Made by a program: the position numbers and the translations under genes. Under the pieces are notes generated by a model. It ran no database searches, was not told the DNA's origin, and was given only the letters and a program-made list of their open reading frames with translations. This document shows, piece after piece, positions 3,216 to 15,152 of a DNA stretch of 16,125 nt (within the stretch, counting starts at the first letter, position 1; each line of letters starts with the position of its first letter). Source of the DNA: Candidatus Woesearchaeota archaeon (lineage in GTDB: Archaea > Nanobdellota > Nanobdellia > Woesearchaeales > GW2011-AR4); contig DUHN01000060.1 in the NCBI GenBank assembly GCA_013330825.1, positions 1 through 16,125 on the forward strand. Direction: 5' to 3'.

Positions 3216-3225
3216 TTTTTGATAA

Positions 3226-3257
3226 AGAAGAAGAAAGGAAAAAAATAAACAAAGAAT
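3226..3257 (-). terminator. Oligo-T terminator at the end of the metal operon
   Basis: Read on the - strand, several T-runs (TTTGTTTATTTTTTTCC and beyond) begin about 25 bases after the stop of the 11-codon ORF, as in archaeal intrinsic termination. The purD TATA box begins directly after it, so this is the boundary between the two transcription units. Confidence 0.6.
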
Positions 3258-3273
3258 GGTTGATGGTATAGTC

Positions 3274-3289
3274 ATGCTGTTAACAGCAT
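3274..3289. repeat. Perfect 16-bp palindrome ATGCTGTTAACAGCAT
   Basis: ATGCTGTT/AACAGCAT is a perfect inverted repeat without a spacer. It covers the last two Cys codons and the stop of the 11-codon ORF and lies just before the oligo-T terminator. It could be a protein-binding site or assist 3'-end processing. Its overlap with the ORF end also means the ORF may be a by-product of another function. Confidence 0.6.
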
Positions 3290-3315
3290 CCCTTGCCCTT
3301 GCCTTTTCCTGCCAT
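3280..3315 (-). CDS. Possible 11-residue Lys/Gly peptide ending in Cys-Cys
   Basis: A short reading frame, MAGKGKGKGCC followed by TAA, stands behind one of the best ribosome binding sites in the window: GGAGGTGA (complement of 3321-3328) five bases before ATG. Such a site is hard to explain if nothing is translated here. It is the last cistron before the oligo-T terminator of the metal operon, 51 bases after the lipoprotein stop. The alternating Gly-Lys run and terminal vicinal cysteines would suit binding of a soft metal or nucleic acid, but that is inference; I recognise no family. The palindrome overlapping its end may be a separate element. It could also be a leader- or attenuation-type ORF. 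Confidence 0.5.
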   Translation of the reverse strand: MAGKGKGKGCC

Positions 3316-3366
3316 GCTTCTCACCTCCCCCGGTTATTGATGAGCAGTTCATTGATTGGGTAGTGG

Positions 3367-3822
3367 CTATCCCCAGCGATATTCCCGCTTCTCGACGGAA
3401 GGTATGCCCGTGATGGTCAATCCGAACGACGTGGGCTCCTCCCCGACATCAAACGCCAGCAGGCCGCCGCCATGGTGGCCATTGAACGCGGGGGCGCTGA
3501 CGGGGAGCAATCCTTTCCCATTGATGGTCAGCACGGCATCCTTCGCCAGAGTAACCTGCCCAAGATCGACGGAATGGGTGTTCATCTGGACCTCGATGAC
3601 AAACCTGCCATCGACCATCCCCTTCGGCGTCGCCTCCACCAGCACATTGCCGGAGTCCACGCCGCCCGTTGATTTTGTCGGGTATGCTGCCGCATCTGCC
3701 TGCGCCAAGGGCGCTTTTTCGCCGTTCCCCACCTGCCCATCGGCTTTCTTCTCGGCACAGCCGGCTACTGCCCACGCGACCAGGATGATGGACAACACCA
3801 AGAGCACCTTACGAGCATCCAT
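3367..3822 (-). CDS. Lipoprotein with NTHSVDL and HHGGG motifs, probable metal-locus envelope protein
   Basis: A 151-residue protein with a bacterial-style lipobox: a hydrophobic segment VLLVLSIILVAWAVAG followed by Cys22, so it should be lipid-anchored outside the membrane. A flexible linker (about 23-60) leads into a beta-rich domain with NTHSVDLGQV (81-90), FNGHHGGGLLAF (113-124) and a C-terminal ITGIPSVEKREYRW (137-150). From memory, this NTHSVDL...GGHH...G.L.F pattern recurs in uncharacterised envelope proteins; the paired histidines suggest metal binding. The start is set by GGAGGTG six or seven bases upstream of ATG. It overlaps the end of the preceding membrane-protein gene by 14 bases, so the two are translationally coupled. 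Function is not established. Confidence 0.82.
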   Translation of the reverse strand: MDARKVLLVLSIILVAWAVAGCAEKKADGQVGNGEKAPLAQADAAAYPTKSTGGVDSGNVLVEATPKGMVDGRFVIEVQMNTHSVDLGQVTLAKDAVLTINGKGLLPVSAPAFNGHHGGGLLAFDVGEEPTSFGLTITGIPSVEKREYRWG

Positions 3823-4237
3823 GCGCGCACCTCCTCTTCATCCTCCATTCCTGGACCAGTGCTATTGCGCCGAAGAACACCAATACCCCTCCGCTCAGGT
3901 AGAAGAGTGCAATCTGCGGCTGGAGCGCCTGGAACGGAACCCCGGCGGCCACGAGGCCGATGTTGAGCAGCATCAACCCCGGAGAGATGCACTTCCTCGT
4001 GAAGTAGAAGAACAGCGTGATCGCGAGCAAAGCGGCAGCCACCATCCACACCGGCTTGGCGATGGTGGTGAAGAAGAGCAGGGGCATGCCCTGCAGGGAG
4101 ATGCCGATGACCGACAGCGCCGCGATCAGTGCCAGGCAGACATTGTGGCAGACCTGCCATGAGCCGAGCACGCTTGCTGCGGCAGAGATGCTGCCCGTCG
4201 CCCCGATGAGCCTTTCCTTTCTCGATGATGCGTCCAT
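3809..4237 (-). CDS. Four-helix membrane protein with CHNVC motif, function unknown
   Basis: A 142-residue protein with about four membrane helices (near 30-50, 51-61 joined to 62-80, 86-102, and 109-129). A C-H-N-V-C motif (30-34) lies at the start of the first helix, a further Cys at 83, and the C-terminus ends RRCAHGCS, so it is rich in potential soft-metal ligands. It resembles small mercury/copper transport proteins such as MerT/MerC only in size and cysteine placement; I do not assign it to them. It starts 16 bases after the DUF302 gene and its end overlaps the lipoprotein gene, suggesting the three act together. The start has only a weak ribosome binding site. Confidence 0.78.
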   Translation of the reverse strand: MDASSRKERLIGATGSISAAASVLGSWQVCHNVCLALIAALSVIGISLQGMPLLFFTTIAKPVWMVAAALLAITLFFYFTRKCISPGLMLLNIGLVAAGVPFQALQPQIALFYLSGGVLVFFGAIALVQEWRMKRRCAHGCS

Positions 4238-4253
4238 GATGCAGCCTCGCGCC

Positions 4254-4634
4254 TCACAGCGCGTCGACGACTTTCTTCAGCTTCTTCTCCACGTCCTGCG
4301 CAATCCCGAGAAGCCGGTCGTTGCGTATCATCCCCATCGCCGCCGTCGGCAGGATGGCGGAGACTTTTGTCTTTCCTCCCTTCTCATGCACGATGACGTT
4401 GCAAGGCAGCATCAGGCCGATGTCCTCCTCTGCCTGGAGCGCCTTGTAGGCGAACGGAGGGTTGCATGCCCCGAGGATGAGATACTTGTCGAAGTCCACG
4501 TCCAGCTTCTTCTTGAGGGTTGCCTTGACGTCTATTTCCGTCAATACCCCGAAGCCTTCCTTCTGCAGCTCCTGCCGCGCCCTGTCCACCGCCTGCTCGA
4601 ACGTGAGCGGCAGCTCTTTTCCGTATCCGTACAT
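4254..4634 (-). CDS. DUF302-family protein
   Basis: A 126-residue protein with the DUF302 core: KEGFGVLTEIDVKATLKKKL (25-44), then ILGACNPPFAYKAL (53-66) and IGLMLPCNVIVHE (72-84). Two conserved cysteines, C57 and C78, could bind a metal or form a disulfide. The family is widespread in archaea and bacteria, often beside thiol, heavy-metal or sulfur genes, but its biochemical role is unknown. I chose the ATG at 4634 because GGAGGG lies at 4642-4647, seven bases upstream, and family members usually begin close to this MYGY segment. Upstream ATGs at 4649 (overlapping the dehydrogenase stop as TGATG) and 4664 are possible. No signal peptide is seen. Confidence 0.9.
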   Translation of the reverse strand: MYGYGKELPLTFEQAVDRARQELQKEGFGVLTEIDVKATLKKKLDVDFDKYLILGACNPPFAYKALQAEEDIGLMLPCNVIVHEKGGKTKVSAILPTAAMGMIRNDRLLGIAQDVEKKLKKVVDAL

Positions 4635-4648
4635 GTCCCTGCCCTCCA

Positions 4649-5413
4649 TCACTGCGCCGTCCATCCCCCGTCAACGACGAGATTGTGGCCGGTGATGAAG
4701 CTCGATGCGTCAAGCGCCAGGAACACCGCGGCGTTGCCGATGTCCTCCGGAATCCCCACGCGGCCCACCGGGGTGTTTCCCAGCAATGAGGCGCTGGTTT
4801 TCTTGTCCTTGAGCATGCCGGCCGTCATGTCCGTCTGGATGACCCCCGGGTCGATTGCGTTCACGGTGATGCCCTCTTTCGCGACGTCAAGCGCCGCTTC
4901 CCTTGTCAGTTCGGTGACTCCCCCCTTCGAGGCGCAGTACGCGGAGATGCCCGGGAAGCCCACCAGGCCGGCGATGGAAGAGATGTTGATGATCCTCCCT
5001 CCCTTGCCCTGCCTCTTCATCTGGATGATGGCGTGCTTCATACCGAAGAACACTCCCTTGAGGTTGACGCTCATCTGCCTGTCCCATTGCTCCTCGGTGA
5101 GCTGGTCGACGGTGCCGAACACCAGGATGCCGGCGTTGTTCACCATGATGTCCAGCTTCCCGAATTTCTCCACCGCCTGCCTGACGAGGTTCTCGACGTC
5201 TTTCTCTCTGGAGACATCCGCCACCACGAAGAGAGCGTCGCTTCCGAGCTTTTTGATCTCCTGCACAGTCTTTTTCCCCTCTGGAGAGTCCTTGTGGGCG
5301 TTGATGACCACCTTGCATCCTTCCTTCGCCAAGCAGAGCGCGATGCCCTTGCCGATGCCCCTGTCAGAGCCAGTGACTACCGCAACCTTTCCATCAACCT
5401 TTCCATTGCCCAT
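4649..5413 (-). CDS. Short-chain dehydrogenase/reductase (FabG-like)
   Basis: A 254-residue classical SDR with an NAD(P)-binding Rossmann fold: TGSDRGIG (14-21), D66-V67, NNAG (92-95), N117, catalytic Ser in NISS (143-146), and Y159-x3-K163. The C-terminus SSFITGHNLVVDGGW is typical of FabG or glucose-dehydrogenase-like SDRs. It reduces or oxidises an alcohol/carbonyl pair in the cytoplasm, but the substrate cannot be read from the sequence. I placed the start at 5413 because GGAGG lies eight bases upstream; the longer in-frame extension to 5494 would contain that site and looks non-coding. It sits oddly among metal-handling genes. A carbonyl-detoxifying role is conceivable but unsupported. 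Confidence 0.93.
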   Translation of the reverse strand: MGNGKVDGKVAVVTGSDRGIGKGIALCLAKEGCKVVINAHKDSPEGKKTVQEIKKLGSDALFVVADVSREKDVENLVRQAVEKFGKLDIMVNNAGILVFGTVDQLTEEQWDRQMSVNLKGVFFGMKHAIIQMKRQGKGGRIINISSIAGLVGFPGISAYCASKGGVTELTREAALDVAKEGITVNAIDPGVIQTDMTAGMLKDKKTSASLLGNTPVGRVGIPEDIGNAAVFLALDASSFITGHNLVVDGGWTAQ

Positions 5414-5501
5414 GTGCGCGCCTCCTGTTTTCCTTCTGCTTGCCTTCTGTTCGGTTTTTTGACTTGTCGTCCCATTGCCATGCCTTGCTTGCACCTGTTC
5501 T

Positions 5502-5651
5502 TCACACAGGCTTCAGCACTCCGACTGCGGATGTGGTGATTTCAATGTTGCAGCTCTGATGCTTTCTGCACCAGTCCTCGCATTCCTTTGCCATCTCCTT
5601 CCGTGGATAGGCAAAGCTGCACATCTCGCATAGGTACACTTGCTTTACCAC
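5502..5651 (-). CDS. 49-residue Cys-rich zinc-finger-like protein
   Basis: A short gene with clear protein-like features. From the GTG at 5651 it encodes 49 residues with YLCEMC (6-11), a helical KEMAKECEDWCRKHQSCNIEI (18-38) and a short tail. The cysteines are C8-x2-C11, C24-x3-C28 and C34 with H31 nearby, a pattern able to hold one Zn2+ or another metal. Small archaeal proteins of the form Y-C-x2-C-x-F-x-Y...C-E-x-W-C-x2-H-x2-C are familiar to me as uncharacterised conserved proteins. Start choice is uncertain: a second GTG (5639) or an internal ATG (5624) is possible and no strong ribosome binding site is seen. The frame stays open back to the stop of the upstream membrane-protein gene at 5724. 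Confidence 0.68.
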   Translation of the reverse strand: MVKQVYLCEMCSFAYPRKEMAKECEDWCRKHQSCNIEITTSAVGVLKPV

Positions 5652-5723
5652 GGCATCATTTTTTCTGCTATCCTCGTTACAACCAACATTCCTGTGTGAG
5701 ACGCAACAGCACGCTCTGCGGCA

Positions 5724-5969
5724 TTACGCGAATTTGTTGTACACCCACGCGAGGGCGTACGCAAACACGAATCCCATGATTGCCGCTTCGGCAATGCCGG
5801 TCATGATCCCTATCGGGGTGAGGGAAAAGAACATGTGCCACTGCATCATCTGCTGCGCAGCGCCGCTGTACATGCCCATGTTGCCCCCTATGCCCAGCAG
5901 CAGCATCCCGGCCGCGCTGACAATCGCTCCCGCGTATCCCAATGCCAACTCATTCAGTTTTTCTGCCAT
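5724..5969 (-). CDS. Small membrane protein resembling DUF5676
   Basis: An 81-residue protein with a short cytoplasmic N-terminus (MAEKLNELAL) and two or three hydrophobic segments: 11-29, 45-57 and 59-76. It ends AYALAWVYNKFA. The pattern of a glycine-rich first helix followed by a loop and a G-F-V-F-A-Y helix near the C-terminus is like small DUF5676 membrane proteins, which often appear in metal-resistance clusters, but the match is by eye and weak. Methionine is frequent (23, 31, 33, 41, 42, 46, 56, 65), which would suit Cu+ contact. It starts 52 bases after the DsrE-like gene with a weak GAGGCG site. Confidence 0.75.
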   Translation of the reverse strand: MAEKLNELALGYAGAIVSAAGMLLLGIGGNMGMYSGAAQQMMQWHMFFSLTPIGIMTGIAEAAIMGFVFAYALAWVYNKFA

Positions 5970-6021
5970 GTTTTTCGCCTCTTGCTTCCTCTTGCCTGTT
6001 TCGTGCCTTCTCTTCTGCCTC

Positions 6022-6345
6022 CTATCCGAAGGTCAGCACCTTGTCTGATTTCTCGATCAATGCCAGCAGATCCTTCATGGTGGAGACGGGGCAGACTGCG
6101 CTTTCTCCCTTCTGCCTGGATTTCATGCACGTCCCGCAGGCCAGGATCCGCCCTTTCTGCTCCCTAAAGGCGTCGACCTGCCCCTTGACATCGTACTTCC
6201 CGTCTGTGATGTCCTCTATCTCCACTCCCTTGTTCATCAGGAACACCACCACTTCATGCTGCGCCTTCAACGCCGTGACCCCCAGTCTGAAGGCATTCCA
6301 CACGGTTTCCGGGTCGTTTGTGCCCAACACGATGCCGATGTTCAT
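6022..6345 (-). CDS. DsrE-family protein with CGTC motif
   Basis: A 107-residue cytoplasmic protein of the DsrE/TusD fold. It begins MNIGIVLGTNDPETVWNAFR, a nucleotide-fold-like first strand and helix, continues with VVVFLMNKGVE (32-42) and has the typical cysteine-bearing segment ILACGTCMKSRQKG (67-80), with a third Cys at 85. In relatives the corresponding cysteine carries persulfide sulfur during sulfur relay; here C70 and C73 are the candidates. The start at 6345 is preferred over 6393 because the latter would overlap the DUF2892 gene by about 40 bases and family members start at this strand. It begins five bases after the DUF2892 stop, so the two are coupled. Confidence 0.9.
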   Translation of the reverse strand: MNIGIVLGTNDPETVWNAFRLGVTALKAQHEVVVFLMNKGVEIEDITDGKYDVKGQVDAFREQKGRILACGTCMKSRQKGESAVCPVSTMKDLLALIEKSDKVLTFG

Positions 6346-6350
6346 CTTCG

Positions 6351-6548
6351 TCAACCTTTCTTCCCGATGCCCAGCATCTCGTGCAGCCAGCAATACCCGA
6401 GGAAGCTCTCAGCCAGCGCAATCCACGCAACGGCAATGATGAGCCAGTTCACCCATTCCGCGGCGAAGCGCAATGGCCACGGCCCCAGCCACCAGAAGGC
6501 CAGCGCGAACCTCAGTATCCTGTCAACCGTCCCTAAGTTTTGCCTCAT
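6351..6548 (-). CDS. DUF2892-family small membrane protein
   Basis: A 65-residue protein starting MRQNLGTVDRILRFALAFWW, the typical DUF2892 (YgaP membrane-domain type) opening, followed by a second hydrophobic helix (about 34-51) and ending FLGYCWLHEMLGIGKKG with Cys53. Two membrane helices are expected. In bacteria this domain is often fused or linked to rhodanese-type sulfur carriers, so its pairing here with a DsrE-like protein makes sense. The start at 6548 follows GAGGTGAT four bases upstream. ATG at 6554 and GTG at 6557 would lie inside that site and are less likely. Confidence 0.88.
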   Translation of the reverse strand: MRQNLGTVDRILRFALAFWWLGPWPLRFAAEWVNWLIIAVAWIALAESFLGYCWLHEMLGIGKKG

Positions 6549-6570
6549 GTTCATCACCTCAGCGTCTCGT

Positions 6571-6582
6571 CATTTATTTAAG
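6571..6582 (-). promoter_or_regulatory. Possible internal TATA box before the DUF2892 gene
   Basis: CTTAAATAA on the - strand matches the core of the thyA promoter exactly and is centred about 28 bases before the DUF2892 start. It overlaps the last codons of the preceding gene (Leu-Lys-stop), so it may be coding coincidence. If real, it would let the DUF2892/DsrE half of the locus be expressed separately. Confidence 0.28.
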
Positions 6583-7197
6583 CTCTTTCTTCATCTCCTC
6601 GAATTGCTTCCTGGAGATATCCCCTTTGGCGTAGCGCTCCTTAAGCGCGTCAAGAGGGCCCCCGCGCACCTGCTTCCACAGCCAGATGACCAGCAGCACC
6701 AATGCCGCCAGCAGCAGCACGGACCACAGCGCGCCAAGCACCCAGTAGCCTCCGTAGCCGCCCATCATCCCCATCCCATAGTTGTATGCCATCATCCCGC
6801 CTCCTCGTTGGTTGCCTATGCTGTCCGCATCCTGAGCGTCGCCCCAGTTGTCCATCATCCCCGGTCCCATGCCCCAGCCCATCATGCCCATGCCGTAGCC
6901 GGTGCCGGCACGCTCGTTGCAATAGATCCGTTCCGCGATCGCGATATGCGCCTGCTTCACCTGGGCAGAGCCCTCGCCGCCCATCATCTGCTCCATGAGG
7001 GCATGCGCCTCTCCCGGATGCATCTGCTCCATGTAATAGTCCCCTATCATCTCCATTTGCCCATCGCTGAGCTGGGCGCAGGGCACCTTGGCGTCTATCA
7101 GCCCCTTCGCCTCGGTGAAATCCTCCGCCTGTCCGGCGGCAAGCGCCATGCCCAGCACCAGCATCGCTATGCATGCCCATTGCTTGTTCATGCCCAT
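6574..7197 (-). CDS. Met-rich membrane protein with signal peptide and C-terminal SHOCT domain
   Basis: A 207-residue protein in three parts. Residues 1-24 are a signal peptide ending near AAGQA. The exported region (about 25-150) first carries a helical segment with two cysteines (C40, C93), then a Met/Gly-rich stretch with repeated GMGMM, GMMD and GMMAY motifs (about 100-147) of the kind that binds Cu+. A membrane helix (151-176) follows, then a cytoplasmic SHOCT domain, GPLDALKERYAKGDISRKQF (180-199), continuing EEMKKEL. SHOCT domains are short oligomerisation-type modules. The start at 7197 has GAGGTGA five bases upstream; GTG 7206 overlaps that site. A role in external copper binding or sensing is inferred from composition and neighbours. 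Confidence 0.85.
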   Translation of the reverse strand: MGMNKQWACIAMLVLGMALAAGQAEDFTEAKGLIDAKVPCAQLSDGQMEMIGDYYMEQMHPGEAHALMEQMMGGEGSAQVKQAHIAIAERIYCNERAGTGYGMGMMGWGMGPGMMDNWGDAQDADSIGNQRGGGMMAYNYGMGMMGGYGGYWVLGALWSVLLLAALVLLVIWLWKQVRGGPLDALKERYAKGDISRKQFEEMKKELK

Positions 7198-7219
7198 CAC
7201 GGTCACCTCGCCATTCTTC

Positions 7220-7729
7220 TTACCATTCCTTGCAGCAGTTTATTATCTTTTTCATTAGGGCGGAGAATTTACCCATCTTCCTGCTTTCTTCCGCCAGCGC
7301 GCCTTTCTCTATCTCCTTGACGCCGACCAGCTTGAGATTGATGGCGAAGAACAGCGCCCACAGGTCAAACCCTGCGCGGAAATAGGGGAGCGCCTCCTTT
7401 TCGCCTTTTGTCGAGAGCTCCTTGCACCCCACTTCGTAGAGGCGCATGCTCGCCGCGAGCAGGTGCTTGCTGATGCACCATTCCTCCCCGACGGGGCTGA
7501 CGACGATCTTCGCGAGGAGCTTCTTCCGCATCTCCCTCACCGATTGCAGGGACTCGAGATACCTCTGGTTCCCGGTCTTCATCGCGGTGAAGTAGAAGTG
7601 CTCCTCCAGGCTGATGAGGTTCATGAGCGCGATGCTCAGGTCCTCGTCGCGGGACAGGTCCGCCTCTCCCTTCTTCAGCTTCGCGATCTTCTCCATCCAT
7701 TCCTTGACGGCGTCTCCTTCCATGGTCAT
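7220..7729 (-). CDS. 169-residue helical protein, conserved-looking but function unknown
   Basis: An almost wholly helical soluble protein without signal peptide or membrane helix. Notable segments are SRDEDLSIALMNLISLEEHF (26-45), followed by YFTAMKTGNQRYLESLQSVREMRKKLL and GEEWCISKHLLAASMRLYEVG (81-101); it ends with vicinal cysteines (C165, C166). I have a memory of similar uncharacterised archaeal proteins with the EDLS...EEH and WCISKHLLAASMRL motifs, but no function. E42, E43, H44, H89 and C85 could form a metal or cofactor site. The start at 7729 overlaps the previous stop as ATGA, so it is translationally coupled to the CPLC membrane protein; an ATG two codons later (7723) is also possible. 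Confidence 0.82.
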   Translation of the reverse strand: MTMEGDAVKEWMEKIAKLKKGEADLSRDEDLSIALMNLISLEEHFYFTAMKTGNQRYLESLQSVREMRKKLLAKIVVSPVGEEWCISKHLLAASMRLYEVGCKELSTKGEKEALPYFRAGFDLWALFFAINLKLVGVKEIEKGALAEESRKMGKFSALMKKIINCCKEW

Positions 7730-8247
7730 AGCAGCAGTTGCATGATGGCGCCCGCGCCGACGAGCAGGGCAAGGGTGAGCACGATTCCCTGGTAGGGCAG
7801 CGTCCTGTTGCCGCGCCAGGATGACATCTTCCTGCTCATCCATGGCGTCATGCAGGTGATGGCCCCGCCGAGCAGCGCCCCGGCGTAATAGGCATTGAGC
7901 GCGTAGGTCTTGCCGTATGCCCCTATCCAGGGGATGTACAGCGCCCTTGTCTCCGACAGCAGGGGGGCGAGGGGCAGCACCGTGGTGATGACTGACAGCA
8001 GGATCAATGCCGGCTTTTGGTACGGGATGTACTGCCGCTTCAGCATGTTGCCGATCCACCACCCCATGGACACGGCGAACGCGCCGATGAACACCCCGAT
8101 GGCGCCTTTGCCTACCCCGAAGTATGCAGCCCCCCCTGCCGCGGCAGCCGCGCCGACGGTGCAGAGCGGGCAGTGGGCAGAGACGGCCTGCATCATTGCC
8201 AGGAGCGCGCCTCCCGGCAGAAGCAATCTCTTCTTCATGGTGCTCAT
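7726..8247 (-). CDS. Polytopic membrane protein with CPLC motif
   Basis: A 173-residue protein with five or six hydrophobic segments. The first (7-24) looks like a signal or anchor, immediately followed by H25-CPLC (26-29), a C-x2-C redox or metal site at the outer edge of the membrane. Further helices lie around 31-45, 49-69, 78-97, 116-134 and 153-173, with another Cys at 132. A C-x2-C beside membrane helices recalls VKOR-type disulfide enzymes or metal transfer sites, but the fold is not clearly VKOR. GAGGG seven bases upstream supports the start at 8247; 8253 and 8238 are alternatives. The coupled gene downstream may encode its cytoplasmic partner. Confidence 0.82.
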   Translation of the reverse strand: MSTMKKRLLLPGGALLAMMQAVSAHCPLCTVGAAAAAGGAAYFGVGKGAIGVFIGAFAVSMGWWIGNMLKRQYIPYQKPALILLSVITTVLPLAPLLSETRALYIPWIGAYGKTYALNAYYAGALLGGAITCMTPWMSRKMSSWRGNRTLPYQGIVLTLALLVGAGAIMQLLL

Positions 8248-8258
8248 GCCCATGCCCT

Positions 8259-8741
8259 CTATACCCTCATGAACTCCGTGTAGCTGCCGTCGTGCTGCAC
8301 CGCGTAGATGACCCACGTCCCGGACTTCTTTCCCGGCATTCCTGGAGAGCCGGAAGGCATGCCCGGCAGGGCGATGCCGGCGATGTCCGGCTTTTCCGCC
8401 AGCAGCTTGGCAATCGCCTCGTTGGGGACATGCCCCTCCACGAAGTATCCCTCTATCTCAGAGGTGTGGCAGCTTTGCAGTTGGGGCGGGACATTGAACT
8501 TCCTCTTTATCTCGCCCATGTTGTCGACCGTATTCATATCCACCGCATAGCCTTCCTTTCCCATGTACTGCGAATAGACGTCGCAGCATCCGCAGCCGGG
8601 AGACTTGAAGATGGTCGCCTTTATCCCAGACGGTACTGACGCCCCCTCCGAATCCTGCTGGGCGGCCGGCGCGCATCCGAGAAGAAAGACCGCCATGCCG
8701 ACGAGCAGCGCCCCGATGATCATGTTTTTTTTCTTATCCAC
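8259..8741 (-). CDS. DUF411 metal-binding lipoprotein
   Basis: A 160-residue protein with a lipobox (hydrophobic IIGALLVGMAVFLLG then Cys23) and the full DUF411 signature: FKSPGCGCCDVYSQYM (45-60), SCHTSEIEGYFVEGHVP (90-106) and IALPGMPSGSPGMPG further on. DUF411 proteins are periplasmic or surface proteins found with copper-export genes; C50, C52, C53 and C91 with H92 are the likely metal ligands. The start is taken as GTG 8741, five bases after GGTGA; GTG 8750 and ATG 8723 are alternatives, and 8723 would leave a shorter but still workable signal. The beginning overlaps the end of copA by eight bases. Confidence 0.92.
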   Translation of the reverse strand: MDKKKNMIIGALLVGMAVFLLGCAPAAQQDSEGASVPSGIKATIFKSPGCGCCDVYSQYMGKEGYAVDMNTVDNMGEIKRKFNVPPQLQSCHTSEIEGYFVEGHVPNEAIAKLLAEKPDIAGIALPGMPSGSPGMPGKKSGTWVIYAVQHDGSYTEFMRV

Positions 8742-11052
8742 GTGCCTCACCTTCGCCTGTTTTCCTTTTCCAGATCCTTTTCTTTGCCAACAGCAACGAG
8801 TTTGAAACCACGCTCACCGAGCTCAGCGCCATCGCCGCCCCGGCAATCATGGGATTGAGCAGGAATCCGGCAAGGGGGTAGAGCACTCCCGCAGCTATGG
8901 GGATGCCTGCCGCGTTGTAGAAGAACGCCCAGAACAGGTTCTGCTTTATCTTCCGGATGGTATGCGCGCTCAGGGTGATGGCCTTCACGACATCCCGCAG
9001 GTCATTCTTGACGAGGATGATGGAGCCCGTCTCCAGCGCGATGTCCGTTCCCGCCCCGATCGCGATCCCGACGTCAGAGGCGGCCAATGCGGGAGCGTCA
9101 TTGATGCCGTCGCCGACCATCGCGACGACCTTCCCCTCTTTCTGCAGCTTCCGTATCTCGGCCTCCTTGTCCTGCGGCAGCACCCCTGCGATGACCCTGC
9201 CTATCCCTGCCTGGGCGGCGATGGCTTTGGCAGTCCTCTCATTGTCGCCGGTGATCATCACCACTTCCTTGCCCATGGCGTGCAGCGCCGCAACGGCCTC
9301 CTTCGAGCTCTCCTTGAGGGTGTCCGCTATGGCTATCAGCCCGATGAGGGCAGTATTCACGCCTACGATGACCGTCGTTTTCCCCTGCGATTCAAGCTCC
9401 CTGATTTTCTTCTCCGCATCACTGGAAATCTTCATCCTGAAGCGCGCCAGCATCCTGCTGTTGCCGACGCAGATCCGGTGGTTCTTGTACCGCGCCACGA
9501 CGCCCATGCCATGGACGGCCTCGAAGGCGCCCGGATGGCGGACGGCAATCTTCCTGCTTTTTGCCTTGCTGAGCACCGCCTCCGCGAGCGGGTGCTCAGA
9601 GCCCTTCTCCGCGATGGCCGCGAACCCCAGCACGTCATTCTCCCCGTGCTTTTTGCCGAGCGCGACGATGTCCGTCACCTCAGGCTTCCCGGTCGTCAGG
9701 GTGCCGGTCTTGTCGAACACGATGGTCGTCAGCTTGCGGGCCGTCTCGAGGGCTTCGGCATTCTTGATGAGGATGCCGTTCTCCGCCCCCCTGCCCGTGC
9801 CGACCATGATGGCGGTGGGCGTCGCCAGCCCCAGGGCGCAAGGGCATGCGATAATCAGCACCCCGACGAAAACCGTGAACGCGAACAGGAACGGCGAGGC
9901 GATCGCCATGAAGCCCGGGGCGACAAGATACCAGAAGAGGAAAGAGAGCATGGCGATGGCCATCACGATGGGGACAAAAATCCCGGACACCTTGTCCGCA
10001 AGCCGCTGGATGGGCGCCCTCGAGCCCTGGGCATCCTCGACAAGCCTGATGATCTGCGCGAGCATGGTGTCGCTGCCGATTCTCGTCGCTTTCACCCTGA
10101 GCATCCCGCTCTTGTTGATGGTCGCCCCTATGACCTTGTCCTTTTCCTTCTTGGAGGCAGGCATGCTCTCCCCAGTGATCATGGACTCGTCCACGTGGGA
10201 GCTCCCTCCGGAGACAATGCCGTCCGTCGCTATCTTCTGCCCGGGCTTGACGATGAATATGTCGCCGATCCGCAGCTCTTCGATGGGGATTTTCTGCTCC
10301 TTCCCGTTCCTCACCACCAGCGCTGTTTTCGCCTGCAATCCGATGAGCTTCCGTATCGCCTCTGATGCTTTTCCCTTTGTCACGGCCTCAAGGTATTTTC
10401 CGAGCAGGATGAAGGTGATGATGACCGCAGAGGTGTCGTAATACAGCTTCGCGTCAAAGGAGGAGGGGAAAAAGGTCGCGAGGGCGCTGTATGCGTATGC
10501 GGCGGATGTCCCTATCGCTATCAAGGTGTCCATGTTCGCCGCCCAGTTCCGGAGCGCGGCCCAGGTCCCGGTGTAGAAGCGGTAGCCGAGGATGAATTGG
10601 ACAGGCGTGGCAAGGGCGAACAGCACATAGGCCCGGTACGGGAACGCTATCCCGAACCATTCCGGGAACGAGAGGATGAAGATGGGGATGCTCAGGGCGA
10701 ATCCGGCAATGACCTTCCTCTTCAGCCCGGCAATCTCCTCCTTGCGCGCTTCCTTCTCCCGGTCATGGCCGGATAAATGCTCGCCCGCCTGCAGCTCCTT
10801 CACGCCATACCCTTTTTTCCTGATGGCGTCCTTCAGCGCGCTTTCCTGCACGGTACGGGGGTCGAACTCGACAACCGCTTTTTCCGAGGCGTAATTGACA
10901 TGCGCTTTTCCCACCCCGGGAGTTTTCAGGAGGGCGCGCTCGATGATGGCAGCGCACGACGCGCAGTGCATGCCGGTGATGGGGATGGTCGCCTTCTGCG
11001 TTGCCGCGTCATGCATATCGTGATCATGCCCATCGTGGCTCATATCGTCCAT
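8734..11052 (-). CDS. copA: Cu+-exporting P1B-type ATPase
   Basis: A 772-residue heavy-metal ATPase that pumps Cu+ (or Ag+) out of the cytoplasm. In order: a metal-binding-looking tail MDDMSHDGHDHDMHD (1-15); one HMA domain with GMHCASC (27-33); transmembrane helices; actuator-domain TGES (293-296); CPC in helix 6 (403-405); phosphorylation site DKTGT at D447; SEHPLA of the nucleotide domain (485-490); and GDGIND (647-652). The Y712-N713 pair in helix 7 and M741-x2-SS in helix 8 are the residues that define the Cu+ subgroup. ATG 11052 is chosen because GGAGG stands six bases upstream and it follows the chaperone stop by one base; the extension to 11091 overlaps the chaperone gene. Confidence 0.97.
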   Translation of the reverse strand: MDDMSHDGHDHDMHDAATQKATIPITGMHCASCAAIIERALLKTPGVGKAHVNYASEKAVVEFDPRTVQESALKDAIRKKGYGVKELQAGEHLSGHDREKEARKEEIAGLKRKVIAGFALSIPIFILSFPEWFGIAFPYRAYVLFALATPVQFILGYRFYTGTWAALRNWAANMDTLIAIGTSAAYAYSALATFFPSSFDAKLYYDTSAVIITFILLGKYLEAVTKGKASEAIRKLIGLQAKTALVVRNGKEQKIPIEELRIGDIFIVKPGQKIATDGIVSGGSSHVDESMITGESMPASKKEKDKVIGATINKSGMLRVKATRIGSDTMLAQIIRLVEDAQGSRAPIQRLADKVSGIFVPIVMAIAMLSFLFWYLVAPGFMAIASPFLFAFTVFVGVLIIACPCALGLATPTAIMVGTGRGAENGILIKNAEALETARKLTTIVFDKTGTLTTGKPEVTDIVALGKKHGENDVLGFAAIAEKGSEHPLAEAVLSKAKSRKIAVRHPGAFEAVHGMGVVARYKNHRICVGNSRMLARFRMKISSDAEKKIRELESQGKTTVIVGVNTALIGLIAIADTLKESSKEAVAALHAMGKEVVMITGDNERTAKAIAAQAGIGRVIAGVLPQDKEAEIRKLQKEGKVVAMVGDGINDAPALAASDVGIAIGAGTDIALETGSIILVKNDLRDVVKAITLSAHTIRKIKQNLFWAFFYNAAGIPIAAGVLYPLAGFLLNPMIAGAAMALSSVSVVSNSLLLAKKRIWKRKTGEGEARG

Positions 11053-11053
11053 G

Positions 11054-11263
11054 TCATGCCTCCTCAACGGTGTACTTGCCGAGGCTTTCAATCTCCTTTT
11101 TCAGGGCATTCCAGTCCGGTTTGCCTTCGTACTCAACGACCATGTTTCCCGTGCCAAAATCGACAGTGCATCTTTTGACGCCCAGGATGTCCCCGCATAC
11201 GTCCTCGATGAGCGCCTTGCATGCCCTGCAATGCGTCCCTTTGACCCTGAATGCTTTTTTCAT
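11054..11263 (-). CDS. Atx1/CopZ-like HMA copper chaperone
   Basis: A single 69-residue heavy-metal-associated domain with GTHCRAC (9-15) in place of the usual GMxCxxC; C12 and C15 bind Cu+ and pass it to the ATPase. The ferredoxin-like beta-alpha-beta pattern continues with GVKRCTVDFGTGNMVVEYEG, which adds a third Cys (C32). GGGTGA six bases upstream of ATG sets the start. The stop codon is one base from the copA start, so chaperone and pump should be made together. The Met-to-Thr change before the first Cys is shared with the HMA domain of the fusion protein upstream. Confidence 0.93.
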   Translation of the reverse strand: MKKAFRVKGTHCRACKALIEDVCGDILGVKRCTVDFGTGNMVVEYEGKPDWNALKKEIESLGKYTVEEA

Positions 11264-11266
11264 CGG

Positions 11267-11342
11267 CGTTCACCCATAATCCATTCTCACCCACAATTCA
11301 CTCACACTCATAATCCACCCATATCAATCTCCTATCCCCTCT
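11267..11342 (-). repeat. Short imperfect repeats between the fusion and chaperone genes
   Basis: This 79-base spacer is richer in A/T than its surroundings. On the - strand it repeats TGGATTATGRG twice and GTGAG/GGTGA-like words several times. The last copy supplies the GGGTGA ribosome binding site of the chaperone. It has no reading frame I would call a gene and no convincing TATA box. It may be a transcript-processing or translation-tuning region, or simply a slipped duplication. Confidence 0.3.
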
Positions 11343-12728
11343 TTATGCCCGCGGCACCACGCTGAATGCCGCGCCGGGAGTGGTCATGCCCATGGTGCAG
11401 CTGAAGGCGAACCTGCCGACCTTTTCCGGGATGAAGGAGATGACGTTCAGCTTCCCGGGGGACAGATACCTCAGAAGGCCCAGTTTGGGCGCGGTGATGA
11501 CCTGCGCGCATCCTGTCGCCTTTGAGGCGTCAATCTGCCATTCGACCGGAATGCCCTCCACAACCTCAAACTTCGGGGGGAAGTAATTCAGCCCCTCAAT
11601 CCTCATCTTCGCGATCTGCCTGCCGTCAACGATCTCCGCCTTCTGCACCGGCGAGGAGATGCTCTGCTGGTACTGCGCGATTGCCGGATTGAGGCTTGCC
11701 GCGGAAAGCGGGGAGGGGATATCAAGGGTGATGCTGGCCGCGTTCACCCCGCTGATGAGGTTGAAGACCCCGAGGACGATGACGGCGACGCCAGCGAATT
11801 GCATGAAGAGGCGCTTGGACGTCCCCCGGACGTAGCTGGACACCGCCCCGACAGAGAGGAGGGAAGGGAGCGTCCCGAGGGAGAACACCAGCATGGTCAG
11901 CGCGCCGGCCGCTGCGCTGCCCGTGCTCAGCACGTAGAGCTGGAGCGCGATGGTGAAGCCGCACGGCAGGAAGAACGTCCCTGCCCCGAGGAGGAACGGC
12001 ATGGCCCCGTGCTGTCTGGCGGCGGCATCGTGCAGCTTGTGCCCGAGCGCCTTGGGCATCCGCGGATGGAACCTCGCGAGAGAGGGAAAAATCCTGAGCA
12101 GCCGGAATCCCAGGACGATCATCACCGCGCTCGCCCCCATGATGAGGATGCCGTTCATGAAGGGGGAAAGCGCGAGCACCGAGCCGAATGCGCCGATAAC
12201 CGCGCCGAAGAAGGTGTAGGAGGCGATCCTCCCCATGTTGAAGAAGATGTTCGGCCTGAATTTCTGCCAGCCAGTGAGCTCGGGATGGGCTTCATTGTGC
12301 CGCGCGACGACGGCGAGGAGCAGGCCGCCGGAAACCGCCAGGCACGTCGAGACCGCGGCAACGAGGCCGATCAGGAAGATGAAGCCGTAGCTCATGGTCT
12401 CTGACGTCTGCATCTGCGGCAGGATGTCAAACGCCTTCAGCAGGACATACGTGAGCAGGGTGATGCCGGCCATGAGGGCGATTTCCCCGTAATCGGGCTT
12501 TTCCGTCTGCCCCTTCTCGGCAAGGGAGTAGCCGTGTTCCCTGACAGCGCTTTCGATGTCTTCCCTTTTCGGGAGGCCGTCATAGGAAACCTTCGCCTTT
12601 CCCGTCCTGAAATTGACATGCGCCCCGGTGACGCCCGGGACTTTCTTCAGCTGCCGCTCCAGGAGGATCTCGCAGCTCGGGCAGTGCGTCCCCGCAATCC
12701 ATATCTCCATTGTCTTTGCGTGGTCCAT
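11343..12728 (-). CDS. HMA - TauE/SafE-type membrane - cupredoxin-like fusion protein
   Basis: A 461-residue three-part protein. Residues 7-70 are an HMA domain with GTHCPSC (13-19). About 82-330 form a multi-helix membrane domain of the sulfite exporter TauE/SafE or DsbD-like type, with STCLAVSGG (127-135) and FLPCGFTIALQLYVLSTG (253-270), each carrying a Cys in a helix. Residues 375-461 look like a cupredoxin domain: VVEGIPVEWQIDASKATGCA (389-408) and RFAFSCTMGM (439-448), giving C407, C444, M446 and M448 as probable copper ligands. The order implies that copper is taken by the cytoplasmic HMA, passed through the membrane and bound outside, or the reverse. It starts 39 bases after the ArsR gene; ATG 12710 is an alternative start. 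Confidence 0.88.
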   Translation of the reverse strand: MDHAKTMEIWIAGTHCPSCEILLERQLKKVPGVTGAHVNFRTGKAKVSYDGLPKREDIESAVREHGYSLAEKGQTEKPDYGEIALMAGITLLTYVLLKAFDILPQMQTSETMSYGFIFLIGLVAAVSTCLAVSGGLLLAVVARHNEAHPELTGWQKFRPNIFFNMGRIASYTFFGAVIGAFGSVLALSPFMNGILIMGASAVMIVLGFRLLRIFPSLARFHPRMPKALGHKLHDAAARQHGAMPFLLGAGTFFLPCGFTIALQLYVLSTGSAAAGALTMLVFSLGTLPSLLSVGAVSSYVRGTSKRLFMQFAGVAVIVLGVFNLISGVNAASITLDIPSPLSAASLNPAIAQYQQSISSPVQKAEIVDGRQIAKMRIEGLNYFPPKFEVVEGIPVEWQIDASKATGCAQVITAPKLGLLRYLSPGKLNVISFIPEKVGRFAFSCTMGMTTPGAAFSVVPRA

Positions 12729-12767
12729 GGAGTCGGTATCCTATCCTGCGGTGATTTATCCTTGCCC

Positions 12768-13070
12768 TTATCCCTTGAGGTGGCAGCAGTACTGCTTCAT
12801 GTGCCTGTCCATGATCATGAGGATTTTCCGGATGGTCTCCTTGTTGAGGGAATACACGCGCTCCCTGCCGTTCTGCCTCGCCTTCACGAAGCCGCACTCC
12901 TCCAGCCGCGCAAGGTTCTTGGACGCGGTGGGCTGCTTCATCTTAAGAGCGCTGCAGATCTGGGTGGCGTTCTTCTCCCCGTCGAGGAGCAGCATCATGA
13001 TGTCTATGCGCATCTGGTTGGCGAGCGTGCCGAAGAACCTGCTGTAGGGGTGCCTGAGCTTCTGTTTCAT
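12768..13070 (-). CDS. ArsR-family metal-responsive repressor
   Basis: A 100-residue winged-helix protein of the ArsR/SmtB family: RFFGTLANQMRIDIMMLLLD (11-30), recognition helix region QICSALKMKQPTASKNLARL (37-56), then EECGFVKARQNGRERVYSL across the wing. Possible metal ligands are C39, C59 and a C-terminal D88-x-H90...C95-C96-H97 cluster; the last resembles the alpha-5 type site but does not copy its exact spacing. As first cistron of the metal locus, with a perfect inverted repeat over its expected transcription start, it very likely represses its own operon until metal binds. Copper is the best guess from the genes controlled. Confidence 0.92.
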   Translation of the reverse strand: MKQKLRHPYSRFFGTLANQMRIDIMMLLLDGEKNATQICSALKMKQPTASKNLARLEECGFVKARQNGRERVYSLNKETIRKILMIMDRHMKQYCCHLKG

Positions 13071-13076
13071 GGTTAG

Positions 13077-13093
13077 TTTACATATGATGTAAA
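13077..13093. promoter_or_regulatory. Probable ArsR operator TTTACAT-N3-ATGTAAA
   Basis: A perfect 7-bp inverted repeat with a 3-bp spacer lies between the TATA box (13103-13110) and the ArsR start codon at 13070, covering the expected transcription start near 13080. A dimeric winged-helix repressor bound there would block transcription, the usual ArsR mode of autoregulation. Confidence 0.65.
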
Positions 13094-13102
13094 TGGAATG
13101 TG

Positions 13103-13110
13103 TATATAAA
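13103..13110 (-). promoter_or_regulatory. TATA box of the ArsR/copper operon
   Basis: TTTATATA on the - strand, preceded by a purine-rich AGCAAGA stretch as a BRE-like element. Transcription should start near 13080, about ten bases before the ATG. The gap to the preceding permease gene is about 100 bases, enough for an independent promoter. Confidence 0.7.
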
Positions 13111-13178: not shown

Positions 13179-14501
13179 TTATCGCTTGATCCGGCCACGC
13201 TTCCCTTTCATCCCGCCCCAGCGGGCGAACAAGGCATAGATGACCATCCCTGCGGCCAGGAGCCCCGCCCCGTACGCGAAAATCCTCGGCTCAAAGAACC
13301 AGAGCATGCCGACGTTGAGCGCGATGCCCAGCAGGGCGAGAAGCGGGAGTTTCCCGACGGTGAAGGGGCTCCGGAACTCCCGCTTTGCCAGGGGTTCGCG
13401 GTAGCGCAGGGCAATGACCGCGGCGTTGATGAAGATATAGACGGAGAAGATCCCCAAATCGACAAGGTGCGCGAGGTCCCTGATGCCTCCCGCAAACAGC
13501 GCCGCGCTCGACAGGAGGAAGACGGAGCCGATCGCATACGGCGGAGTGCCGCGCGCTCCCACGAATCCGAAAAAAGACGGCAGCGCCTTGTTCGAGGCAA
13601 GGCCGTACAGCAGCCGCGATGCCACGATGAGGAGGATGAGCACGGTGTTGGACGTGGCGAAGAGCGCGATGACCGCAAGGACCCATGAGCTTCCGGGAAT
13701 GGCCTGCTCCACGGCTTCTGCGAGAGGGGCCTTTGACTGCGCGAGCCGCTCCCATCCCACCAGCGAGACCGCGGCAACGGACACCAGGATATAGATGACT
13801 GTCGATATGGCCAATGACCACAGCAGTGCCTTGGGAATGGTCTTTCTCGGCTCCTTCACCTCCTCGGAGATGTTCACCAGGTTCTCGAAGCCGATGAAGG
13901 CGAAATAGACAACCGTCGTTGCCGCCATCACTCCTCCCCACCCAAACGGAGACGCGCTGACGGAAAGGTGGGGGACGACCCCGGTTTTCCCTATGAAGTA
14001 GGCCCCCAGGACAACCACTCCCACGAGGCCTGACACTTCCAGGAAGGAGGAAAGGTCATTGTACCGCGCGGAATCCTTCATGCCCAGCAGGTTGAGCAGG
14101 GACATCGCGAAGAGGAGCAGGAAAGCGATGAGCAGGAGGCTGCCCCCGAAGAGAAAACTCCAGTACCCGGCAAAGCCGAGCGCAACCACTCCCGCAGAGA
14201 CGGTGGTGACGAACACCATGGTCCATTGCACCATGAAAGAGAGCCATGCCTTCCCGAAGGCGTGCTTGGTGTAGACATACTCCGCTGCCTCCTTCGGGTA
14301 CAGGGACGCAAGCTCCGCGTAGCTGAGCCCCGTGCACGCGGCGATGATCGCCCCGATGAGGAACGAGAGCCAGAGCGCGCTGCCCGCGGTCGCCGCGCCC
14401 GCCCCGACAAGCGCATAGATGCCCGCTCCCAGTATGATGCCGATGCCGTAGAGCGTCGCCTCGAAAAGGCCGATGGTTCTCTTTAAGGTTTGTTTTGCCA
14501 C
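13179..14501 (-). CDS. APC-superfamily amino acid permease
   Basis: A 440-residue membrane transporter with about 12 helices. The first helix carries the APC signature YGIGIILGAGIYALVG (18-33), with helix 2 following at SALWLSFLIGAIIAACTGLSYAELASLYP; the central FAFIGFENLVNISEEVKEPRKTIPKA segment is the typical loop after helix 6. Such proteins import amino acids by proton or sodium symport or exchange; the substrate is not deducible. The start is a GTG with GAGGAG just upstream. It lies downstream of the PAS remnant and folA and may be read from the thyA promoter. The Lys/Arg-rich C-terminus (GKRGRIKR) is cytoplasmic. Confidence 0.93.
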   Translation of the reverse strand: MAKQTLKRTIGLFEATLYGIGIILGAGIYALVGAGAATAGSALWLSFLIGAIIAACTGLSYAELASLYPKEAAEYVYTKHAFGKAWLSFMVQWTMVFVTTVSAGVVALGFAGYWSFLFGGSLLLIAFLLLFAMSLLNLLGMKDSARYNDLSSFLEVSGLVGVVVLGAYFIGKTGVVPHLSVSASPFGWGGVMAATTVVYFAFIGFENLVNISEEVKEPRKTIPKALLWSLAISTVIYILVSVAAVSLVGWERLAQSKAPLAEAVEQAIPGSSWVLAVIALFATSNTVLILLIVASRLLYGLASNKALPSFFGFVGARGTPPYAIGSVFLLSSAALFAGGIRDLAHLVDLGIFSVYIFINAAVIALRYREPLAKREFRSPFTVGKLPLLALLGIALNVGMLWFFEPRIFAYGAGLLAAGMVIYALFARWGGMKGKRGRIKR

Positions 14502-14508
14502 CTTCTCC

Positions 14509-14675
14509 TCAGCGCATTTTCCCGGTCTTGAGCTTTTCCTCAGCCTCTTTCAGCTTCGTGATATCAAAATGGATGGAAAGGTACTTGACTGGCTTCCCCG
14601 TCTTGCCCAGCACTTCGGCGCGCGGCGCGGGAGGATTTCGAGCTTTTCCTTCGTCGGGCGGAGAATCTCGATCAT
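14509..14675 (-). pseudogene. Frameshifted PAS-domain fragment
   Basis: The stretch opens with ATG 14675, nine bases after the folA stop, and reads MIEILRPTKEKLEILPRRAP. Within the GC-rich CCGCGCCGCGCGCCG the reading then shifts to another frame, AEVLGKTGKPVKYLSIHFDI continuing TKLKEAEEKLKTGKMR, and stops at 14509. The second part is a clear PAC-type end of a PAS domain (GKPVKYLSIHFDIT followed by K-x-AEEKL). The total of 167 bases shows one base lost or two gained. Only the C-terminal part of a PAS domain is present, so this is most likely the remnant of a sensor protein. A sequencing error in a real ~55-residue gene is the main alternative. The stop falls just before the permease ribosome binding site. 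Confidence 0.55.
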
Positions 14676-14684
14676 GCGGCGCCC

Positions 14685-15152
14685 TCAATGCCTCTTCCTG
14701 TAGACGACAAACTCGAACTCCGGAAAATCCCGCCTTTCCTCAACGGCCCATTCCTTCTCGGTAAACTCCGGGAAGAACGTGTCCCCGGGGTAGTCTTTCC
14801 TGATGTACGAAAGCATCATGGTGTCCGCAAGGGCGAAGCTCTCCCTGGCGATCTGCGCCCCGCCGATGATGAAGATATCCCTGTGGTGCTTCTTCGCCAT
14901 CTCAACGGCCTCGGGGACGCTTCCCGCGACCTCGCATCCGGGCACCTTCCCGGCGTTCCTGCTCACGACGATGTTCGGCCTGCCGGGCAGCGGGTGTCCG
15001 ATGGACTCATAGGTCTTCCTTCCCATGATGATGGCGCCTCCCTTGGTGAGCTTCCTGAAATGGCTGAGCTCTTCGGGGATGTCCCACGGCAGCCTGCCGT
15101 CTTTCCCGATGACTTTCCCTTTTTTGGTCATGGCCACGACAATCGCAATCAT
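14685..15152 (-). CDS. folA: Dihydrofolate reductase
   Basis: A 155-residue bacterial-type DHFR that reduces dihydrofolate to tetrahydrofolate with NADPH, renewing the cofactor oxidised by thymidylate synthase. Seen are MIAIVVAM (1-8), VIGKDGRLPWDIPEELSHFR (14-33) with W23 and the catalytic acid at E28, MGRKTYESIGHPLPGR (43-58) with the NADPH-binding GRKT, and IFIIGGAQI (93-101). I start at ATG 15152, matching the usual family start; a GTG at 15167 overlapping the thyA stop as GTGA would add five residues. It follows thyA directly, the classical functional pair. Confidence 0.95.
   Translation of the reverse strand: MIAIVVAMTKKGKVIGKDGRLPWDIPEELSHFRKLTKGGAIIMGRKTYESIGHPLPGRPNIVVSRNAGKVPGCEVAGSVPEAVEMAKKHHRDIFIIGGAQIARESFALADTMMLSYIRKDYPGDTFFPEFTEKEWAVEERRDFPEFEFVVYRKRH

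Follow-up and report, generated by a model that had tools for sequence, protein, structure and literature searches.

Copper operons of archaea have been described from Sulfolobus (copR-copT-copA) and Haloferax (copA-lrp-copZ); in the available part of that account they share a copper ATPase, a chaperone and a local regulator, and a SHOCT protein of Haloferax is induced by silver (PMC10694973). CopG, a thioredoxin-like protein with a tetranuclear copper cluster, is genetically linked to copA (PMC7558416, in the passages available). A literature search that combined copper resistance with Woesearchaeota and DPANN returned only an Asgard review. Here we analyse a gene cluster on contig DUHN01000060.1 of a Candidatus Woesearchaeota archaeon. 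The window is the entire contig of 16,125 bp, and the genome assembly (GCA_013330825.1) comprises 1.16 Mb in 83 contigs and is 87% complete. Compared with the operons of Sulfolobus and Haloferax the cluster has an ArsR regulator instead of CopR or Lrp and many more genes, of which those for the proteins that we call CPLC, p169, TM142 and p151, and for a micropeptide, are not described in the same part of PMC10694973. Its gene neighbourhoods mark it as a conserved cluster of Woesearchaeota for soft metals, copper being the most likely of them. We assign a probability of about 0.6 to the reading of the cluster as a metal-inducible operon for copper (soft-metal) and thiol homeostasis which includes a Cu(I)- or thiol-binding micropeptide. 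As an archaeal copper/thiol operon it would be of a known general kind; it also holds unnamed conserved families and a member of a micropeptide family. The features of the cluster are as follows (ORF, open reading frame; aa, amino acids; TM, transmembrane).

13103..13110, minus strand: TTTATATA, TATA box of the ArsR promoter, 40 bp ahead of the start ATG
13077..13093, no strand assigned: operator-like palindrome TTTACATCATATGTAAA (TTTACAT-CAT-ATGTAAA, perfect 7-bp arms), between the TATA box and the ArsR start
12768..13070, minus strand: ArsR/SmtB metalloregulator, 100 aa (NF033788, 72.6 bits against a cut-off of 55)
11343..12728, minus strand: fusion of HMA, DsbD_2/TauE-like membrane and cupredoxin-like parts, 461 aa (Pfam)
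11054..11263, minus strand: CopZ-like HMA chaperone, 69 aa (HMA, 45 bits)
8734..11052, minus strand: CopA, P1B copper ATPase, 772 aa (TIGR01511, 627.8 bits against a cut-off of 397)
8259..8750, minus strand: DUF411/CopG-like protein (DUF411, 89.7 bits), start at ATG 8723 or at GTG 8741 or 8750
7726..8253, minus strand: CPLC, membrane protein without Pfam family, predicted mature N-terminus HCPLC
7220..7729, minus strand: p169, conserved protein that belongs to no Pfam family; by eye it lacks a signal peptide
6574..7206, minus strand: Met/His-rich, apparently exported protein with a SHOCT tail, 210 aa (SHOCT, 27.9 bits against 27)
6351..6557, minus strand: YgaP-like TM protein, DUF2892 (PF11127, 43.3 bits)
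6022..6345, minus strand: DsrE-like protein with CGTC (PF02635, 38.3 bits)
5724..5969, minus strand: TM81, protein with two TM segments, DUF5676-like (PF18926, 24.6 bits, below the cut-off of 27.6), with a 55% homologue in genome G050
5502..5651, minus strand: ZnR49, 49-aa five-Cys protein (C8, C11, C24, C28, C34) without family
4649..5413, minus strand: SDR oxidoreductase, FabG-like, 254 aa (PF13561, 240 bits)
4254..4664, minus strand: DUF302 protein (PF03625, 91.6 bits; PDB 1j3m)
3809..4237, minus strand: TM142, hydrophobic and membrane-like by eye, with conserved CHxxC and Cys83, without family
3367..3822, minus strand: p151, lipobox-like by eye, with conserved TH and GHH motifs, without family
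3280..3315, minus strand: micropeptide ORF MAGKGKGKGCC (GGAGGTGAG), 11 codons, with a Shine-Dalgarno sequence
3224..3253, minus strand: oligo-T, terminator-like tract read in the sequence after the 11-codon ORF

The original prediction had asked whether the genes of the second half keep company with copA, and they do: CPLC, p169, SHOCT, DUF302, TM142 (its CHNVC protein) and p151 (NTHSVDL) recur with copA in related archaea, as do DUF2892 and SDR, mostly on the same strand, and DsrE recurs in just one other genome (G014) among the loci fetched. The closest layout (genome G008) comprises ArsR, CopZ, the HMA-TauE fusion, CopA, DUF411, CPLC, p169, SHOCT, TM142, p151 and the micropeptide. Since strand and partners recur in many relatives despite a partly shuffled order, the clustering is more than chance. 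Among 59 genomes, our own included, CPLC was found in 19 and p169 in 17; 16 of the latter have a CopA match, and in 13 CopA, or a contig-end piece of it, lies within 10 kb on the same contig, while two others carry p169 on contigs of 3 and 6 kb. Across 287 genomes of the order CopA is present in 43/45 with p169 and in 141/242 without it (Fisher p 1.5e-7, kinship ignored), and the two genes lie within 15 kb of each other in at least 18 of the 45. Neighbours were counted in 79 of 80 named p169 loci (L101 had no p169 ORF call), pooled from archaea and bacteria and differing in length: CPLC 58, p151-like 36, CopA 35, SHOCT 24, DUF411 22, DUF5676-like 21, TM142 16, ZnR49 15, DUF2892 14, SDR 12 and DUF302 9. 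Most are on the strand of p169 (CPLC 57/58, SDR 12/12, DUF2892 14/14, DUF411 23/24, CopA 31/38).

The expectation of an "extended copper or thiol-stress system" is upheld by these neighbourhoods in its copper/soft-metal part. One could also imagine a general extracytoplasmic thiol or sulfur stress cluster which drew in copA and for which copper is not the main signal. DsrE, DUF302, the YgaP-like TM protein, SDR and the five-Cys protein would suit such a cluster, as would the thioredoxin-like and Cys-bearing membrane proteins that often accompany p169 in bacteria; DUF302 occurs in the sox clusters of sulfur oxidisers (PMC5037610, in the part available). However, ArsR, CopZ, CopA, CopG and HMA head the operon, co-occurrence with CopA is strong, and a family of CsoR-type repressors, of which one member was checked against Pfam, occurs in 9 p169 loci, so that we hold this explanation to be unlikely.

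The 11-codon ORF, named in the original prediction merely as the end point of the operon, proved to be its most novel part. It belongs to a conserved micropeptide family. The scans for its relatives required ATG and a Shine-Dalgarno-like string, so that GTG or leaderless forms are uncounted; duplicate loci (many of L039-L056 and L140-L147 equal loci in L057-L136) were removed by sequence or by choice of locus. The loci fetched for p169 and CPLC contain 21 distinct ORFs of this kind with 8-14 codons that end in Cys-Cys, 20 of them of the Lys-rich type; all 20 (9-11 codons) have a Shine-Dalgarno sequence and lie on the strand of p169. Variants include MGKGKSKGCC, MPKGKGKGCC, MAKGKGKGCC, MGKGKTKGCC, MGKGKGKECC, MEKGKKGKGCC, MRKGKSKGCC, MGKRKSKGCC and MGKGKKGCC. 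A wider scan of 86 loci, up to 9 kb from p169, gave 865 small ORFs on its strand and 659 on the opposite one; 29 of the former and none of the latter are Lys-rich with a Cys pair. The end of p169 itself accounts for four of these 29, and some others are divergent (MECCGSDCCKNKKDKKEKKEGCCEK, MAKKKKKESKQCCCNC, MKKEKKKQEKDQRDCCCR, MGCCGGSSKKRKKEC). Nine of the 371 genomes of the phylum sample, all from this order, carry the exact motif K-G-K-x-K-G-C-C-stop, at 11 sites in total; nine of these sites are within 6 kb of CopA. A pattern search gave 100 sites in 79/287 genomes, with 16 control sites. Of the pattern regions 36 were fetched, and 30 further short pattern loci were covered by script scan only.

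Could such short ORFs be chance occurrences or a repeated non-coding element? They are very short, Lys-x-Lys-Gly-Cys-Cys ends do arise randomly, and only 16 of the 36 fetched pattern regions contain an ATG and Shine-Dalgarno micropeptide, the other 20 being without the 9-12 codon form. Conservation at the level of the protein nevertheless makes this highly improbable. In 14 sequences (the 10-codon forms of the p169/CPLC loci plus the window) the ratio of nonsynonymous to synonymous differences (pN/pS) is 0.13; leaving out the Cys codons raises it to 0.22, and the K, G, K, K, G codons alone give 0.05. Over 21 sites, eight of which were found through the amino acid pattern, the information at codon positions 1, 2 and 3 is 1.75, 1.78 and 1.17 bits when the start codon is counted; in the upstream and downstream flanks it drops to 0.49 and 0.38, conservation thus being confined to the stretch from start to stop. 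The strand bias and the gene linkage likewise argue against chance, and Rfam gave no match in the window at gathering scores against a non-coding element.

The main rival to a function as ligand is that of a leader peptide. Cysteine-codon leader peptides are short ORFs with tandem Cys codons that precede other genes, and the micropeptides resemble them in each of these respects. On this explanation ribosome pausing at the tandem Cys codons of the 9-12 codon ORFs would sense cysteine or thiol status and determine how far transcripts run through the oligo-T tract into the following gene. The tandem Cys codons stand immediately before the stop, and in the window purD is next on the same strand. 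The best case is offered by the twelve-codon forms (MGKDKMKGKGCC, MGKGKMKGKGCC), which lie 7-68 nt before a glutaredoxin ORF in 6/6 loci of one genus of the family (a CPWC ORF in all six, Pfam having been run on one); in four of the six the order is leader-like, with a common promoter-like AAAGATTATTAAAT, the Shine-Dalgarno sequence, the CC codons, a T-rich tract and glutaredoxin. The oligo-T tracts and this arrangement keep the leader model alive. Elsewhere the next gene varies (SHOCT, DUF2892, DUF5676, TM142, DUF411, glutaredoxin, DAHP synthase, CopA), and a fixed downstream gene with a terminator is found in the glutaredoxin loci alone. The copies in L041, L046 and L049 have a SHOCT gene within about 25 nt and no oligo-T between; the Lys and Gly codons are conserved, as are those for Cys; and different Lys/Cys peptides, in which Cys stands at internal positions, are encoded in other clusters. 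Unlike Cys-codon leaders, then, the micropeptides possess a conserved Lys/Gly body and a variable downstream gene, and that of the window is last in its operon. Because of the variable operon position, the conserved body and the divergent Lys/Cys peptides elsewhere we favour a functional product and rate the leader explanation as rather unlikely.

The micropeptides would most likely serve as Cu(I)/thiol ligands, with a minimal metallothionein-like or small-thiol function. The bacterial metallothioneins SmtA and MymT have about 50 residues and many Cys. The likeness is that of small Cys peptides in metal operons: the micropeptides are short, Cys-bearing, beside metal genes and conserved as proteins. 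They differ in having 9-12 residues, one Cys-Cys pair and a Lys/Gly body, and with one pair per peptide a metal-thiolate cluster would need oligomers. To our knowledge annotation pipelines normally skip genes of 9-12 codons, and the family could therefore easily be missed. It is unnamed in the literature listings searched and in the available passages of four papers, and a search on KGKGCC gave only an amphibian peptide paper. The near-identical 9-12 codon Lys/Cys genes beside copper and thiol genes suggest that a class of very small peptides which bind metals or thiols has been overlooked. Provided that they are made, few genetically encoded ligands of metals or thiols would be shorter, and they would show what these DPANN archaea use for Cu(I) holding and disulfide reduction.

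It is possible, though doubtful, that the micropeptides represent a ribosomally made low-molecular-weight dithiol, of which a genome often encodes two or more copies. It would buffer Cu(I) and play for glutaredoxin much the part that glutathione plays elsewhere. A GCS2 match is absent in 9 of the 13 micropeptide-bearing p169 genomes of the family. The replacement of a missing GshA was considered and is unsupported for this genome, in which a GCS2-like protein scores above the cut-off (28.1 bits against 21); its presence weakens the idea of a glutathione-type replacement. Archaea have other thiols, including CoA and gamma-glutamylcysteine (PMC7278568, in the part available), which also speaks against a glutathione substitute.

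Two further observations concern these peptides. In L179 and L181 a second Lys/Cys-rich frame, CxCGSGK...CC, ends just before the 12-codon peptide; by eye it resembles a SEC-C zinc motif. A check for phage origin found seven viral contigs that match the pattern, one of which (L237) has ATG and Shine-Dalgarno; its positions 5108-5149 encode MAKKKKGKKKGCC with a Shine-Dalgarno-like string upstream.

Returning to the layout of the cluster, the original prediction had described 16 cistrons on one strand with small gaps and overlaps. Strand, order and overlaps hold (ATGA at 7726-7729; 8 bases at 8734, with the GTG start at 8741; 14 bases at 3809), whereas the count has to be corrected to 17 minus-strand ORFs, from ArsR (13070) down to and including the 11-codon ORF (3315-3280). 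Intergenic gaps range from 1 to 88 bp. The claim of one strong promoter, one operator and one oligo-T end agrees with what we find. Among the 90-bp stretches ahead of the cluster genes, that of ArsR alone contains a perfect TATA 8-mer (TTTATATA), such 8-mers occupying 0.012% of minus-strand positions; the 1.16-Mb assembly has no second copy of the palindrome TTTACATCATATGTAAA, also when a mismatch at one position is tolerated; and the T tract follows the last ORF. With one strong TATA box and one oligo-T end seen in the sequence, the cluster is probably one transcript. Two or more same-strand transcripts, with an internal promoter in one of the 52-88 bp gaps or before DUF2892, are possible but less probable. 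Gaps of 79, 52, 72 and 88 bp before CopZ, TM81, ZnR49 and SDR, respectively, would leave room for them, gene order is shuffled in relatives, and a near-match (7 of 8) TATA-like CTTAAATA is located 25 bp before DUF2892, where it overlaps the stop of the SHOCT gene. Against this, a perfect internal TATA 8-mer is absent and many of the genes overlap or are separated by short gaps.

The subfamily profile NF033788 places ArsR in the ArsR/SmtB family. It has Cys39, Cys59, Cys95-Cys96 and His97; the Cys positions are also present in the ArsR of G008 and not in that of G036. Equivalog profiles of named sensors stayed below their cut-offs (CmtR 40.7 against 150, BigR 34.6 against 155). In the fusion protein HMA and DsbD_2 score above the Pfam cut-off and Cupredoxin_1 below it (24.1 bits against 27). 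It has a relative in G008 (43%), and an HMA-TauE/SafE-cupredoxin-like fusion of Acetoanaerobium noterae aligns nearly full-length (31% over 95% of the query); the copy in the window shows no special feature beside it. CopA also has an N-terminal HMA and belongs by profile to the P1B ATPases, with Cu(I) export as its predicted function.

From its sequence match to a solved structure, DUF411 is a CopG homologue. It aligns over 106 residues with CopG (PDB 6WIS; E 5e-21), with CGCC and GMPxGSPGM matched; across 23 sequences CxCC and two nearby Met ligands are conserved to at least 85%. It thus has CGCC and the two Met positions in common with CopG (PDB 6WIS/6WJE), which is linked to copA elsewhere (PMC7558416, in the passages available). 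The copy in the window differs in being archaeal, lipoprotein-like and inside a 17-ORF cluster, and its copper binding is predicted by homology. A literature search on DUF411, CopG and copper together gave no matching paper. Its lipobox-like LLGC was judged by eye. Lgt is present in this genome away from the window (PF01790, 251.8 bits; G000:C80:3920-4666), and the lipobox-like ends of DUF411 and p151 could therefore be used. An Lgt-like gene, recognised by eye (cluster c24, 9/79 p169 loci), adjoins the cluster in relatives.

Profile searches of Pfam and NCBIfam assigned no family to CPLC, p169, the five-Cys protein, TM142 or p151. The CPLC-type motif is present in 119/120 homologues, the remaining one reading CRLC. 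It is preceded by Ala at -1 (119/119) and by Val or Ala at -3 (114/119), with 16 different residues at -2, and +1 is His in 119/119. Of 53 copies taken from genomes, 43 have His at +1, five have Phe and five Val; a few more are without leader or motif in the part read. V/A-x-A is typical of signal peptidase I cleavage; because the aligned residues fit this pattern, mature CPLC should start with HCPLC. Thirty members searched against Pfam gave scattered weak matches only (best E 0.0028, none common to more than six members).

For p169, 6564 homologues were found, and a Pfam domain is present in 0/120 of those listed. Searches of 36 members (25 of the 26 families listed) against Pfam yielded weak scattered matches (best E 0.011, none in more than six members). 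After the removal of rows of 150 aa or less, the alignment comprises 78 sequences from archaea and bacteria, in which the residues D24, D30, M36, S40, E42, H44, K51, R65, R68, G81, E82, W84, C85, K88, H89, L90, R96, E99, G101 and K103 are invariant, and C165, C166 and E168 are present in 77. In many printed loci of bacterial candidate phyla p169 follows a CPLC-like or c19 membrane protein and precedes the thioredoxin-like c13; these Cys-bearing membrane and thioredoxin-like neighbours point to thiol chemistry. The c19 protein has conserved NPC and EFPC motifs, its representative having only a sub-threshold SfLAP match. The A1 profile, run on the question of p169/CPLC structure, found nothing credible in the PDB (best E 0.019, to an entry that looks designed). 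Both p169, a large and strongly conserved family without a Pfam entry, and CPLC become testable through the copper link.

Of the other products, the SHOCT protein has the conserved motif Y.MEQ.HPG..HE.M...MGGEGS, the Cys of the five-Cys protein are conserved in 17 sequences, SDR is 72-78% identical in the clusters of relatives, and TM142 has 209 homologues. A plasmid origin was also considered; TM142, p151, CPLC and SHOCT had no match in 72,556 plasmid records. Protein clusters c3 and c5 also recur beside p169. Cluster c3 (e.g. L082; 39/79 p169 loci) has CEYCCG...CGCAHSxAMRG and a C-terminal VGGC, its representative being without a Pfam match; a small neighbour, c6, also ends in VGGC, and a 37% relative of c3 is found elsewhere in this genome (G000:C21). 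Cluster c5 (e.g. L087; 33/79 p169 loci) combines an N-terminal membrane-like part with conserved Cys and a C-terminal winged helix (DUF7343), and is possibly a membrane copper/redox sensor of the relatives' clusters.

Taken as a copper and thiol homeostasis operon, the cluster might operate in the following way. Its first genes form a usual set of sensor, chaperone and exporter. ArsR would occupy the unique palindrome that separates the TATA box from the start codon, and a thiophilic metal such as Cu(I) would free it. Cu(I) would be handed to CopA for export by CopZ and the HMA-TauE-cupredoxin fusion, and copper at the outer face would be handled by DUF411/CopG, the Met/His-rich SHOCT protein, p151, TM142 and CPLC. 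CPLC may act through its mature N-terminal HCPLC site, with p169 as a putative intracellular partner of this membrane CxxC protein. The last gene would yield MAGKGKGKGCC, a member of the family of 9-12 residue Lys/Gly peptides with terminal Cys-Cys. As there is no room for a signal sequence the peptide should stay inside the cell, where its Cys-Cys pair may bind Cu(I) destined for CopZ or CopA, or undergo dithiol cycling with glutaredoxin.

Several observations weigh against this proposal. The genomes are related, so that p values overstate independence. CopA is on a separate contig in G050, and G004 and G244 have p169 without a CopA match. In bacterial candidate phyla p169 and CPLC often have no copper genes in the stretch seen, and because these copies are near thioredoxin-like and Cys-bearing membrane proteins the two may serve thiol redox and not copper. 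The ATG and Shine-Dalgarno small-ORF scans detected no micropeptide in bacterial p169 loci. Of the two exact-motif sites not placed near CopA, that in G012:C3 lies close to a multicopper oxidase gene (0.8 kb), and for the one in G191 CopA was not placed among the matches listed. Some copies stand between transketolase and DAHP synthase genes (three closely related genomes) or by nitroreductase. The GCS2-like protein mentioned above belongs here too, and the oligo-T tracts directly after several micropeptides fit a leader peptide equally well.

The cluster had also been said to lie exactly between two folate/nucleotide blocks. This does not hold, as two genes intervene between dihydrofolate reductase (DHFR) and ArsR, and the flanks of relatives differ.

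13179-14501: amino-acid (APC) permease, adjoins ArsR, with 62-63% homologues beside the cluster in G009 and G012
14509-14688: 59-codon ORF between DHFR and the permease, fragment-like, no Pfam or NCBIfam match

A functional link to folate lacks support and is rejected in view of the other flanks in relatives. In one archaeon (L096), a single case, a DHFR-like gene is near the cluster. At the contig end (217-1250, plus strand) are an HxlR-family regulator and a 172-aa protein without Pfam or NCBIfam family. The APC permease may belong to the system, because its homologues adjoin the cluster in G009 and G012.

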